Assembly (NCBI GenBank): GCA_016219275.1
Contig: JACRBM010000052.1
Location: 62,001-126,000 of the forward strand
Source of the DNA: Chloroflexota bacterium
GTDB lineage: Bacteria > Chloroflexota > Anaerolineae > UBA4142
DNA length: 64,000 nucleotides
Direction: 5' to 3'
Shown one piece after another: positions 18,039 through 22,383 of this stretch (within the stretch, counting starts at the first letter, position 1; each line of letters starts with the position of its first letter). The notes beneath the pieces were generated by a model. That model did not search any database. It worked only from the letters and a program-made list of their open reading frames with translations, and had not been told where the DNA came from. The translations under genes and the position numbers were made by a program.

Positions 18039-18347
18039 TCAGTCATGTTTGGTAGACTCGCTACCGCCAGATTCCTCCGGCGTGGATGGAATTACGCCTT
18101 GAATCAACTTTTCGCAAGCCACCAAAACTTGGCGGGCTTTGCCTAACGCCGACTCGGCATCGTCTCCATCATACAACTCACTTGGTCAATACCTTCGCCA
18201 AACGCGGATTCTGTTTGGCAATTTTGGAAAATTGCCCCACGATTTTGCATTCAAGTGATAATGGCGGAGCTCCAAGTGGCGTTCGGCATCTTCCAGGCGC
18301 AGTCTGGCATCCTGTAACTGATGATAGGCAAGATTCGGCAGGTTCAT
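18039..18347 (-). pseudogene. HEPN-domain protein remnant (MNT partner)
   Basis: Starts at ATG 18347, overlapping the original stop of the MNT gene (ATGA). The first about 35 residues (LAYHQLQDARLRLEDAERHL) look like helix 1 of a HEPN toxin. That frame stops after about 53 codons. Other frames downstream give FSKIAKQNPRLAKVLTK and then YDGDDAESALGKARQVLVAC up to a stop at 18039, as expected for the HEPN C-terminus. The middle of the domain seems deleted and frameshifted, so no functional HEPN RNase is made. Confidence 0.6.
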
Positions 18348-18852
18348 ATTTCGACCTTTTCACCCAAGGCGGCATCGGGCTTGAGCAACCAAAACCAATG
18401 TCCATCGTCGAGATACACTTTTTGCGAGCCAAGTTCGCGCAAACGCGCGCGTAAACGATTGGCACATTTTGAAAAAATTGGTCGCGATCATACAGCAGAA
18501 CCGCGTCGGTCGTTAGATCGAGATAATAGAGGCTGGTGCGTTGCGCCTCTGCGCGCGTCTTGCGGATGAGACTGAAACCGTGCCAATGCGCGTCGCCAAA
18601 ATTGCCCGGCACACTCTCGGCGACCTCTTCTTCGAGAGCGCGCGTTAACACGTAACGCTCACCGCGTCGCGGCGGCAATGTTTCAAAGACCACAAGCAGG
18701 TCAATGTCCGAGGTGGATTTGAAATCGCCGCGTGCGACCGAGCCATACAACACAATTGAGACGAGATCTTTTCCAAATGTCGCGCGCGCGCGTTGAGCAA
18801 ACCGCTCTACAAGTGTCTGTACCATTTCTCGATCATTCATCTGTTTCACCAT
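18344..18852 (-). pseudogene. MNT-type nucleotidyltransferase antitoxin, frameshifted
   Basis: The first about 134 codons encode a minimal nucleotidyltransferase: LYGSVARGDFKSTSDIDLLV carries the GS and DxD motifs that bind nucleotide and metal. In a GCGCGCGC run near 18452-18460 the frame shifts. The natural end, LRELGSQKVYLDDGHWFWLL and then KPDAALGEKVEI, is in another frame and stops at 18344, exactly overlapping the HEPN start. A 2-bp CG insertion (or 1-bp loss) explains it. MNT proteins AMPylate and neutralise HEPN toxins. The shifted frame runs on to 18178. Confidence 0.75.
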
Positions 18853-18905
18853 GCAATTTTTACATCAAGTCGCACAGGCACGCAAAGTATATCTGGACAA
18901 AGCGC

Positions 18906-18942
18906 AAAAACCCGAAGGGTCTTAAAGACTCTTCGGGTTTTT
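18906..18942 (-). terminator. Intrinsic terminator (AAACCCGAAGGGTCT family)
   Basis: 17-bp near-perfect stem (18906-18922 and 18926-18942) with A- and T-tracts on both sides, just after the nuclease gene on the - strand. The stem shares its core with the hairpin at 6185-6217. Confidence 0.8.
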
Positions 18943-18950
18943 GCGTAGCA

Positions 18951-19496
18951 TCATAGCAACTTGCCTTGCTTACTTTTTTTCTTTTCCGTTTTCGCTTGCT
19001 TGAAACTGACCGCGCCGCGCGATAAATCCGGATAGCGCGGCGATTCACTTCCGTTGAGCAATCCTTCAATCGTGAGGATTTGTATTTTGGGGAACGCGCC
19101 GCTGTGCGGTGATTCGTAAAAGCCCGCGCTCGCGGCTTCGGTCTGCATCGGCTTGGTGGGCGCGGACAATGTGACGAAAAATCCGATTTGCGCTTTTTCG
19201 CGCTCGACGGAATTTTTGAGATCCGCGATCATCGTGCGCGTGACGTTCTCGCCGCCCTTGACCGAAACGATGATCTTGCGCGCAGCGGCGGCATCTTTGC
19301 TGTCTTGAAAATAAAGAATGCCGTCAATCCCAGAGTCCGCACCTTTTTTGCCGCCGCGATACGGTTGCGCGCCAACGCGCGCACATGCCCAGAATTGGAA
19401 TTGGTACTTGTCGCGTTCCGCGAGTTCGCGCGCGCCGTCCAAATCTTTTGGCGTACCTTCGACCGCAAACGCGAGATCGGGAAATGCTTTTCTCAT
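18951..19496 (-). CDS. PD-(D/E)XK nuclease-like protein (normally fused to the methyltransferase)
   Basis: 181 aa. GADSGIDGILYF followed by ARKIIVSVKGG gives the D...VxVK core of an Mrr-like nuclease fold. It corresponds to the C-terminal half of a protein type in which a beta-class methyltransferase ends with such a domain (FPDLAFAVEGTPKDLDGARE is the usual linker). Here it is a separate frame whose ATG overlaps the methyltransferase stop (ATGA at 19493-19496). A -1 event probably split one gene in two, leaving stop-start coupling. Role: restriction partner or accessory DNA-binding module. Confidence 0.75.
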   Translation of the reverse strand: MRKAFPDLAFAVEGTPKDLDGARELAERDKYQFQFWACARVGAQPYRGGKKGADSGIDGILYFQDSKDAAAARKIIVSVKGGENVTRTMIADLKNSVEREKAQIGFFVTLSAPTKPMQTEAASAGFYESPHSGAFPKIQILTIEGLLNGSESPRYPDLSRGAVSFKQAKTEKKKSKQGKLL

Positions 19497-20605
19497 GCGC
19501 TTTTGATGAGGTCTATCGCGAGCGGCGTGATGTCAATGCCGATCCATCGCCGACCCAGGTTTTGCGCGGCGTGAATCGTCGTGCCGCAACCGCAAAACGG
19601 ATCGAGCACCAGGTCGCCGGGATTGGACGACGCGGCGATGATGCGCTCGTACAGCGCGAGCGGTTTTTGCGTGGGATAACCCATTCGCTCGTCAGAAACG
19701 TCGTGCAACGGTTGAATGTCATTCCAAACGTTCGTGACGATTGAACCTTCTTGCTCGTTCAAATATCGTTTGAGACGCGGACGTTTTGAAAAATCAAAAG
19801 AACCATCAGATTTGCGAGGATACCAAACGCGCCCTTCGTCGTGGAGTTTCTGCATCGTTTCGCGTTGATATCTCCAACCTTTTGCCGGGTATGGGAAACC
19901 CATCCATTCATACATCATATTCGGGCGTGGATTTGGACTAGCCATGTCCGCAAGTTGATACGAGCCGCGCCCATCGTTATCATCAAAGCGATAAAATTTT
20001 TCAAGGTATTCTGGATCATGCTCGCCGTACTGTGGAATAAATTTTGTGCCTCTGGACCTGGCATAGAACAAAATTGTATCAGCAACATCCGGGAATTTTG
20101 TCTTGGCGTCGCTATGCGCTGATTGTCGTTTCCAAGTAATCTCATTCCGAAAATTGTCCGCGCCAAAAATCGCGTCAAGAACAATTTTCAAATAATGGCT
20201 CGCGGTCGGGTCGCAGTGCAAGTACAGCGAACCAGTCGGTTTCAGAACGCGGTGCAGTTCGAGCAAACGATTCGCCATCATCACGAGGTACGCCATCATA
20301 TCGCTCTCTTTGAGAAAGCGGCGCAACGATTCAATCATCGCGGCGACATCCGTGTTCGATTGATGCAGTAACTCGGCAAACTCGCGCTCGGCTTTCTCGC
20401 CCCAGTGCCACGAATCCTCGAACGCGGTAATCTGCGCGTCGGACTCATGACCCTTCGGCGTTTTGAACAGCAAATTGTAATCGCGTTTCGAGTTGAACGG
20501 CGGATCGAGACACACCAGGTCAATCGTCGCGTCGCCGATGTGCGCGCGCAAAATGTCGAGGTTGTCGCCAAAGTAGAGCGTGTTCGGTTGCGTGGTTTGC
20601 GTCAT
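19493..20605 (-). CDS. Site-specific DNA methyltransferase (beta-class N4/N6)
   Basis: 370 aa. The catalytic motif IV DPPFNSKRDYN lies near residue 34, before the AdoMet motif DPFCGCGTT near 343, the order of beta-class amino-methyltransferases. FGDNLDIL at the start and GSLYLHCDPTASHYLK in the middle fit the same family. It methylates adenine N6 or cytosine N4 within a recognition site that cannot be deduced. It ends prematurely in IDLIKSA at the point where related proteins continue into a nuclease-like domain, here the next gene. Confidence 0.9.
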   Translation of the reverse strand: MTQTTQPNTLYFGDNLDILRAHIGDATIDLVCLDPPFNSKRDYNLLFKTPKGHESDAQITAFEDSWHWGEKAEREFAELLHQSNTDVAAMIESLRRFLKESDMMAYLVMMANRLLELHRVLKPTGSLYLHCDPTASHYLKIVLDAIFGADNFRNEITWKRQSAHSDAKTKFPDVADTILFYARSRGTKFIPQYGEHDPEYLEKFYRFDDNDGRGSYQLADMASPNPRPNMMYEWMGFPYPAKGWRYQRETMQKLHDEGRVWYPRKSDGSFDFSKRPRLKRYLNEQEGSIVTNVWNDIQPLHDVSDERMGYPTQKPLALYERIIAASSNPGDLVLDPFCGCGTTIHAAQNLGRRWIGIDITPLAIDLIKSA

Positions 20606-20628
20606 TGCGTTTGCTCCATAATCGGGTG

Positions 20629-20729
20629 GTAGGGGCGAGGCATTCGCCTATGCCGTTTCTTTTGCCAGGTGACTGGTCAATCACGCGCTCAGTTTAACCT
20701 GGATATCCTGGCAAATGCCTCGCCCCTAC
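20629..20729. repeat. MITE-like element with 16-bp terminal inverted repeats
   Basis: Perfect arms GTAGGGGCGAGGCATT (20629-20644) and its complement (20714-20729). A second nested pair, TTTGCCAGG / CCTGGCAAA, lies inside. There is no open frame in the 69-bp core. It lies directly before the methyltransferase start, so it may also carry its promoter. The related word TTGCCCCTAC appears inside the PEP-domain gene near 31395. Confidence 0.75.
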
Positions 20730-20740
20730 GGACATTACCG

Positions 20741-20817
20741 CGATTCTAGCACAGCGCGGCAAGTGCGTCAAACAAAAAGACCTGGAAGGTTTCGCGCGAG
20801 CGCCTTCCAGGTCTGGG
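20741..20817 (-). repeat. Terminator-bearing repeat, copy 1 of 3
   Basis: Begins CGATTCTAGCACAGCGC, continues GTGCGTCAAACAAAAAG and ends in the hairpin AGACCTGGAAGG / CCTTCCAGGTCT. On the - strand the hairpin follows the stop of the DUF5647-like gene and is followed by a T-tract, so it is also a terminator. Copies 2 and 3 are at 21454-21534 and 22076-22147. Confidence 0.85.
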
Positions 20818-21111
20818 TTACGCGGCATATTCTGGCAAACGTGTCATCACACGCGGATTGCGCAAGCGCGATTTGATCGGTGCGAGCCGTCCCACTTGAA
20901 CGTAAATGACCGACCGCGCCGGCTTGTCATCGTGTTTGAGATATTTTTTGACGCGGCGGAGGTTCTCGCGGTTGAACTCGGGATCGTTTTTATCCAATAG
21001 CACGACGAGCGCATCGTGCGGAATTTGCTTGGCGAACCCAGGGCGCTCGACCACATAACGCGTAAACTCGGTGAACAATTCATCGTATTTCTCGGCAAAG
21101 CGGGTATTCAT
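20818..21111 (-). CDS. Small hypothetical protein, DUF5647-like
   Basis: 97 aa from the ATG at 21111, which overlaps the stop of the upstream gene (ATGA). Residues RFAEKYDELFTEFTRYVVER and IPHDALVVLLDKNDPEFNRE match the pattern of the DUF5647 family as remembered. No catalytic motif is seen. Translationally coupled to the next gene, so the two probably act as a pair, perhaps a mobile toxin-antitoxin-like unit. The repeat-borne hairpin overlaps its end. Confidence 0.6.
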   Translation of the reverse strand: MNTRFAEKYDELFTEFTRYVVERPGFAKQIPHDALVVLLDKNDPEFNRENLRRVKKYLKHDDKPARSVIYVQVGRLAPIKSRLRNPRVMTRLPEYAA

Positions 21112-21434
21112 TTTCGCATCCTCATTTCCTTTTCGTACTGCGCGCGGTATTTTTTCCAATTCTTGCGAATATCATCTTGCCCAAACGTGAGGACTTCGGC
21201 GTTGGTATAGTACGGAAATTCCTCTTTTGCCGTCGTACCGTCAGGATGAAGCAAATCTTTATGCGGTCTGTTGTGCGCGGTATCATACCGTACGATCTCG
21301 CGCCACTGCTCGTCAATCTCTGCCTCGTATTGAATCGTGAATGCCGTGATCACGTCTTTTTCTAAAACGTGATAATGCCTGTACCGATCCGTTGGACTGC
21401 CTTGCAAAGGCACAGTGAATTGTGTTATCGGCAT
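21108..21434 (-). CDS. Small hypothetical protein, partner of the DUF5647-like gene
   Basis: 108 aa, rich in charged and aromatic residues (DRYRHYHVLEKDVITAFTIQ, EIVRYDTAHNRPHKDLLHPD). The YDTAHNRPHKDLLHPDG segment looks conserved and may hold active residues (D, H, H, H, D). The domain cannot be named with confidence. It is first in a two-gene unit with the DUF5647-like gene (4-bp overlap) and is bounded upstream by repeat copy 2. Confidence 0.6.
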   Translation of the reverse strand: MPITQFTVPLQGSPTDRYRHYHVLEKDVITAFTIQYEAEIDEQWREIVRYDTAHNRPHKDLLHPDGTTAKEEFPYYTNAEVLTFGQDDIRKNWKKYRAQYEKEMRMRK

Positions 21435-21453
21435 CCGCGTTTTCCTTCAATCA

Positions 21454-21534
21454 AGATTCTATCACAGCGCTGGATTCACGTCAAACAAAAAGACCTGGAA
21501 GGTTTCGCGCGAGCGCCTGCCAGGTCTGGGTTAC
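21454..21534 (-). repeat. Terminator-bearing repeat, copy 2 of 3
   Basis: AGATTCTATCACAGCGC, then CGTCAAACAAAAAGACCTGG and a degenerate hairpin. Nearly identical in its second half to copy 1, including the TTTCGCGCGAGCGCC loop. It sits after the DUF2442 gene on the - strand. Confidence 0.85.
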
Positions 21535-21807
21535 TTATTCTGCCAACGGTCGCCGATCCAACAAATGGCATACCTCGATGCCATCGTCCAGCTCATCCCA
21601 GTAAATTACATCGCCCCAGGAATCAATGCGCCAGCGTTTCCGTTGTTGCGGTGTTGCCTGTGCGAGCCATCGCAACCATTTCGTTTTGAGTGACACGCCC
21701 ACTTGACGCCCGTCGCTCAACGCGACGTACAGCATATCGTTCGCGAAACGCACTGCCGTGGCTTGGACGTTATCTACCGTTGATTTATGCTTTACCGAAA
21801 TGCTCAC
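21535..21807 (-). CDS. DUF2442 protein
   Basis: 90 aa. FANDMLYVALSDGRQVGVSL, KWLRWLAQATPQQRKRWRID and IYWDELDDGIEV are the DUF2442 blocks. It follows the DUF4160 gene with a 4-bp overlap, the usual order for this pair, which is widely suspected to be a toxin-antitoxin-like unit although no activity is assigned. A second DUF4160-DUF2442 pair lies at 46884-47433. Confidence 0.8.
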   Translation of the reverse strand: MSISVKHKSTVDNVQATAVRFANDMLYVALSDGRQVGVSLKTKWLRWLAQATPQQRKRWRIDSWGDVIYWDELDDGIEVCHLLDRRPLAE

Positions 21808-22037
21808 TCCACACCTCCAATAATAGCAACCGACTCACGAATCAAGCGAAGAATTTCGGTGAGTTCGGATTGATTATAGCCGCGACTCCACTCGACCTCC
21901 AGTTTGACCAGCCATACTTTGGCGCGTTTGTCTCCGCGATAAACGTGAACGTGGGGCGGTTCCATCACGTCACTGGAAAAAAATCGAAACGCGTATTTCC
22001 CTGCGCCTCTACCTTTGAGTGGAATGGTCGGCGACAT
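21804..22037 (-). CDS. DUF4160 protein
   Basis: 77 aa. FRFFSSDVMEPPHVHVYRGD with the PPHVHV core is the DUF4160 signature, followed by AKVWLVKLEVEWSRGYNQSE. A small basic protein, coupled to DUF2442 by ATGA (21804-21807). Function unknown; the genomic habit of the pair is that of a mobile two-gene module. Confidence 0.85.
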   Translation of the reverse strand: MSPTIPLKGRGAGKYAFRFFSSDVMEPPHVHVYRGDKRAKVWLVKLEVEWSRGYNQSELTEILRLIRESVAIIGGVE

Positions 22038-22075
22038 GAATTACCCCGGTGACATAGGAATTTGTTCTTTCGTCA

Positions 22076-22147
22076 GGATTCTACCACAGCGCGCCGAGTG
22101 CGTCAATCAAAAAGACCTGGAAGGTTTCCAAAACCTTCCAGGTCTGC
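22076..22147 (-). repeat. Terminator-bearing repeat, copy 3 of 3
   Basis: GGATTCTACCACAGCGC, then TGCGTCAATCAAAAAG, then the hairpin AGACCTGGAAGGTTT / AAACCTTCCAGGTCT (22113-22127 and 22131-22145). It lies after the small DUF2281-type gene and before the DUF4160 gene on the - strand. Confidence 0.85.
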
Positions 22148-22155
22148 TCCTTCAT

Positions 22156-22383
22156 TCATAACAAACTTGCCCATGCTGTATCCTCTTCGGGACGATCCCA
22201 GTCTCGACGCAGAATCGCTTCCGATGCAAACGCAGTCTGATAACTTTCGGAAAGTGGTTCGCGCAATGCCGTGAACTTGGCGCGATCCCTCAAGTAGGAA
22301 ACGAAATCATACACAACCGCCAGTTTGTCTGCCGGTAACTCACGCAGTCGTTCTTCAATTTCAAGAATCGTCACAGGTTGCAT
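22156..22383 (-). CDS. Small DUF2281-type (antitoxin-like) protein
   Basis: 75 aa. The N-terminal half LEIEERLRELPADKLAVVYD and FVSYLRDR has the LPxxK...V.DFVxYL pattern of DUF2281-like antitoxin-type proteins. The C-terminal half (ILRRDWDRPEEDTAWASLL) resembles the toxin-binding tail of such proteins. No toxin gene (PIN or RelE) follows, so it may be an orphan. It is separated from mfd by 24 bp. Confidence 0.65.
   Translation of the reverse strand: MQPVTILEIEERLRELPADKLAVVYDFVSYLRDRAKFTALREPLSESYQTAFASEAILRRDWDRPEEDTAWASLL

Follow-up and report, generated by a model that had tools for sequence, protein, structure and literature searches.

Within the window, the 64,000-nucleotide stretch of DNA from a Chloroflexota bacterium that was analysed here, three gaps between genes carry copies of one repeat unit. 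This unit is best explained as a compact minus-strand transcription boundary, in which a predicted terminator is fused to a predicted sigma-70-type promoter and which has been locally triplicated between operons; we give this reading a probability of roughly 0.85. It is based on sequence, position, three-way homology, a genome-wide promoter motif and equivalent junctions in relatives, and from these features we infer that both the terminator and the promoter would work in the cell. The hairpin would end the upstream operon and, a few nucleotides further on, the promoter would start the next one.

The three copies reported in the preliminary description are real. Self-comparison of the window places them, as 80-nt direct repeats in a single orientation, at 20742-20821, 21455-21534 and 22077-22156. 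In an ungapped comparison over 80 nt, copy 2 is 90% identical and copy 3 64% identical to copy 1; in whole-genome BLAST, copy 3 reaches 84% across a match to query positions 1-74. Its divergence from copies 1 and 2 lies chiefly in a shorter hairpin loop. The BLAST E-values for the three copies are 1e-35, 8e-25 and 5e-16, while the next match (8e-7) covers the hairpin half alone. Similarity among the three copies is far beyond chance. Nowhere else in the 6.16-Mb genome does the full unit occur, and the expectation that it would regularly follow small accessory genes elsewhere was not borne out. An Rfam scan of the window from 18 to 26 kb gave no match, and the exact composite core was not found in viral contigs.

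All genes in this region lie on the minus strand, and the unit is therefore to be read on that strand. In this direction, a stop codon is followed after 3-10 nt by a hairpin of the form AGACCTGG(A/C)AGG...CCTTCCAGGTCT, by TTTTTG, by TTGACG, by 17 nt ending in TGTGN and finally by TAGAATC. The hairpin of copy 1 (20778-20814) begins 3 nt past the DUF5647 stop codon, that of copy 2 (21491-21527), with one stem mismatch, lies after the DUF2442 gene, and that of copy 3 (22113-22145), with a 15-bp stem and a 3-nt loop, begins 10 nt past a stop codon. In all copies, a GC-rich stem of 12-15 bp past a stop codon runs directly into a T run, as is characteristic of intrinsic terminators. These features support the earlier proposal that each hairpin is the predicted intrinsic terminator of the gene just upstream. 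The gene labels that came with this proposal fared unevenly: DUF5647 (PF18882) and DUF2442 (PF10387) were confirmed by domain, while the DUF2281 label is unproven for a 75-aa protein that matches no Pfam family, even at E<=5.

The second half of the unit is a promoter half, which the preliminary description overlooked. A promoter scan recovers TTGACG-17-TAGAAT with an upstream TG in all three copies, each with 10 of 12 consensus matches: at 20743-20771 in copy 1 (extended -10 TGTGC), at 21456-21484 in copy 2 (TGTGA) and at 22078-22106 in copy 3 (extended -10 TGTGG). The conserved box GATTCTA-N-CACAGCGC, which had been taken as part of a cassette, turns out to be the reverse complement of the extended -10 promoter element GCGCTGTGNTAGAATC. 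The -10 elements lie 137 nt before the methyltransferase ATG (copy 1), 21 nt before the DUF7718 ATG (copy 2) and 40 nt before the DUF4160 start (copy 3). With -35 and -10 hexamers, a spacing within 16-18 nt and a position upstream of a gene start, each promoter half has the properties of a sigma-70-type promoter and would serve the next operon. Motif and hairpin statistics were obtained from a 796-kb sample of the genome. In this sample TTGAC-N16-18-TANNAT has 52 matches, whereas two altered control motifs have 3 and 5. A same-strand ORF start lies within the 150 nt downstream of 33 of the 52 matches (controls, 0 and 1). The extended form TTGAC-N-GTGNTANAAT is found 38 times genome-wide and the reversed pattern not once. 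As predicted from these counts, the motif is the general promoter of this organism, and since it is used genome-wide, its presence inside the unit needs no cassette explanation.

The units lie in an accessory island that adjoins mfd and contains a restriction-modification system, a DUF4160-DUF2442 pair and a DUF7718-DUF5647 pair; its genes have a GC content of 0.47-0.55, compared with 0.61 for mfd. The boundaries would split this island into four minus-strand transcription units. The first is the gene for the 75-aa protein (22156-22383), upstream of copy 3. In the second, the genes of a DUF4160 protein (21804-22037; PF13711, 2.7e-10) and a DUF2442 protein (21535-21807; PF10387, 3.8e-13) are adjacent and overlap by 4 nt; by domain, the two are homologues of the DhiT-type toxin and the DhiA-type antitoxin (PMC8198452), and the operon is predicted to encode a DhiTA-type toxin-antitoxin pair. 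In a relative, toxicity is neutralised by the partner (PMC8198452), and a similar DUF4160/DUF2442 pair has been linked to plasmid persistence in Thermus (PMC12724237). The third operon, with overlapping genes for DUF7718 (21108-21434; PF24839, 2.6e-29) and DUF5647 (20818-21117; PF18882, 1e-18), is a candidate two-gene module; a literature search on DUF7718 found no paper, and a search for this domain on plasmids gave no hit. The fourth, presumably driven by the promoter of copy 1, consists of an N4/N6 DNA methyltransferase gene (19493-20605) overlapped by that of an Mrr_cat-type restriction endonuclease (18951-19496; PF04471, 9.7e-8). Past the latter lies a minus-strand terminator of another stem family, AACCCGAAGGGT (18903-18945), which is the family found in the related genome G001.

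Two other repeats are present in the region. A 101-bp inverted-repeat element with 20-bp ends GTAGGGGCGAGGCATTYGCC (20629-20729) is situated between the promoter of copy 1 and the methyltransferase gene, and GTAGGGGCG occurs 27 times in 796 kb. Furthermore, a nucleotidyltransferase ORF at 18178-18852 contains in its 3' part a dispersed repeat of about 67 bp (18187-18253). This repeat has 98.5% identical copies elsewhere on the present contig and, on contig C4, beside a tyrosine recombinase; weaker copies are found in other places.

Small accessory genes that are each followed by a conserved hairpin-bearing element, in a lower-GC island beside mfd that is missing there in relatives, call to mind integron-like cassettes, in which the unit would be the recombination site after each cassette gene and an integrase would move gene-plus-site modules. 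This was the reading of the preliminary description, and we consider it extremely improbable. Outside the hairpin, the conserved box is a promoter that is used throughout the genome; integron cassettes are mostly promoterless. The sequence GTTRRRY, the attC-type core, has five matches in 20601-22200, none of which is inside any of the three units. No protein of the genome passes the integron-integrase cut-off of 265; the best pieces, both in one tyrosine recombinase ORF, score 104 and 101 bits. As the genome is a draft, this absence is not absolute. The full unit follows no other gene, and the orthologous DUF7718-DUF5647 genes of G001 are accompanied by a different hairpin. Copies in unrelated gaps without cassette-like boundaries, the pattern that the preliminary description itself had set against a cassette, do exist, namely for the hairpin half. 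Judged by its sequence, the unit punctuates genes in the ordinary way and is not a cassette recombination site.

The hairpin half is a member of a palindrome superfamily with the stem AGACC-N5-GGTTT/GGTCT, whose stems (AGACCTGGAAGG, AGACCCGAAGGG, AGACCTGTCAGG and AGAAACCAGG) are dispersed over the genome. The 12-mer AGACCTGGAAGG alone has 37 occurrences in varied settings, usually without a T tail. When merged, perfect-arm hairpins number 135 in 796 kb, compared with 4 in mononucleotide-shuffled sequence, and the largest cluster has 43 members. The unit has long, symmetrical hairpins, and a T tail is lacking in most other palindromes of the family, so the stem may in part be REP-like and not selected as a terminator. 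With a simple gene caller, 10 of 23 palindromes fall inside ORFs, a count that spurious ORFs make unreliable. In 796 kb, perfect palindromes of the types AGACC-N5-GGTTT/GGTCT and AGAAACCAGGTTTC number at least 23-43, and many of them have no T tail; examples are G000:C52:24934-24967, G000:C52:36440-36536 and C40:12293-12328. A literature search on such palindromes in Anaerolineae found no paper matching all terms.

On account of this superfamily, it could be imagined that the unit is a small non-autonomous REP- or MITE-like element with an outward promoter that was inserted three times, and by domain the genome does contain one Y1_Tnp transposase, on contig C40. Against this, the composite of hairpin and promoter does not occur outside three neighbouring gaps, and its flanks have neither terminal inverted repeats nor a target duplication beyond the hairpin. 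REPs mobilised by RAYTs bear a GTAG tag (PMC3733652), and the hairpins of all three copies lack an adjacent tag of this kind. Insertion of a mobile element is, on balance, improbable.

Both halves of the unit are motifs that recur often in this genome and its relatives, and three independent terminator-promoter gaps could in principle have come to look alike through consensus parts and an abundant palindrome. Such convergence is disfavoured because positions without a function are shared as well, and it seems highly improbable to us. Within their 90% identity over 80 nt, copies 1 and 2 have a 13-nt non-palindromic loop and GGGTTAC in common, and of the 14 free spacer positions copies 1 and 3 share 12, the top value among 276 promoter pairs. 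In the same comparison, the promoter of G001 (TTGACGCACGCGGTTCGCTATGCTAAAAT) agrees with copy 3 at 11 of 14 positions (second of the 276 pairs) and with copy 1 at 9 of 14 (among the top five), a likeness that points to a shared ancestry of the promoter half.

DUF7718 and DUF5647 genes are neighbours in many genomes of the class. In G001, the methyltransferase-endonuclease operon is followed by a terminator with the AACCCGAAGGGT stem, the promoter, DUF7718-DUF5647 and a further terminator, and the locus is the same in L166 (JACRPR010000047.1), a Chloroflexi MAG. The predicted junction architecture is thus kept in G001, with a different stem and a reversed operon order. In 12 relatives mfd could be located, and none of them has island genes in the 1.5 kb beside it; the island at this position therefore looks lineage-specific. 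In G001 and G010, terminator-promoter junctions follow mfd itself; after mfd in G010 (C100:3754-3790; L235, also L218), the two parts are fused very tightly, with the T run of the terminator passing into the -35 box (GGTCTTTTTTGAC). Among 20 genomes of the order, 9 contain the pattern GGTCTTTT..TTGAC..TANAAT, with 15 matches against none for the reversed pattern, and most of these matches have a visible hairpin before the T run. The equivalent junctions in related genomes have stems other than that of the present unit. Adjacency of terminator and promoter was also considered as an unusual feature of this genome and rejected as such, since 8 of 52 promoters have a terminator beside them, as do 35 of 318 intergenic midpoints, which leaves no clear excess over intergenic DNA of this genome. 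The architecture in itself is therefore ordinary, and only the local triplication is unusual.

The transcription boundaries would stem from one origin, by local duplication of an intergenic segment during assembly of the island beside mfd; copying may have taken place through recombination between short intergenic repeats or through gene conversion. The genes separated by the unit were searched for homology and none convincing was found (best E 0.07 over 23 aa). Since they are not detectably homologous, duplication of whole modules fails to explain the copies, and duplication of an intergenic piece or recombination between such pieces is more likely. Homologous recombination between copies could also have made the unit a plug-in site, at which operons are added, swapped or lost, each of them insulated and equipped with a promoter. 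The operon order of G001, where restriction-modification comes before and not after DUF7718-DUF5647, would fit this idea, which we regard as improbable. If true, defence and toxin-antitoxin islands would grow module by module.

The boundary reading corrects a tempting cassette reading, and it indicates that one stop/start signal, present in several copies, can punctuate an accessory island of a Chloroflexota-type genome. Furthermore, for a group that has received little study, the analysis provides TTGAC-N17-TAnAAT, in some cases with TGTGN, as a working consensus of the promoter, together with a superfamily of repeated hairpins.

Several known systems share part of these properties. As in integron cassettes with attC, a small gene is followed by a conserved hairpin; unlike these, the unit has its own predicted promoter and T-tailed terminator and contains no core site, in a genome with no integrase above the cut-off. 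REP and other repeated stem-loop families (PMC3733652, PMC2267715, PMC12306157) are likewise made up of dispersed 12-15 bp palindromes in many copies. Here, in contrast, the stem consensus is AGACC-N5-GGTTT, no GTAG or CGTC tag was noticed, and some members are T-tailed and would terminate. The type II toxin-antitoxin system dhiTA (PMC8198452) has the same DUF4160/DUF2442 pair, with the toxin gene first and overlapping frames, but the predicted pair is here just one of several operons between which copies of the unit lie. Similar in layout are the ordinary gaps between co-directional operons, in which an intrinsic terminator with its hairpin and T run is followed by a sigma-70 promoter with -35 and -10 elements at 17-nt spacing. 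The present gaps differ from these in that no more than a few nucleotides separate the T run from TTGAC, and in that three homologous copies within 1.4 kb separate unrelated operons.
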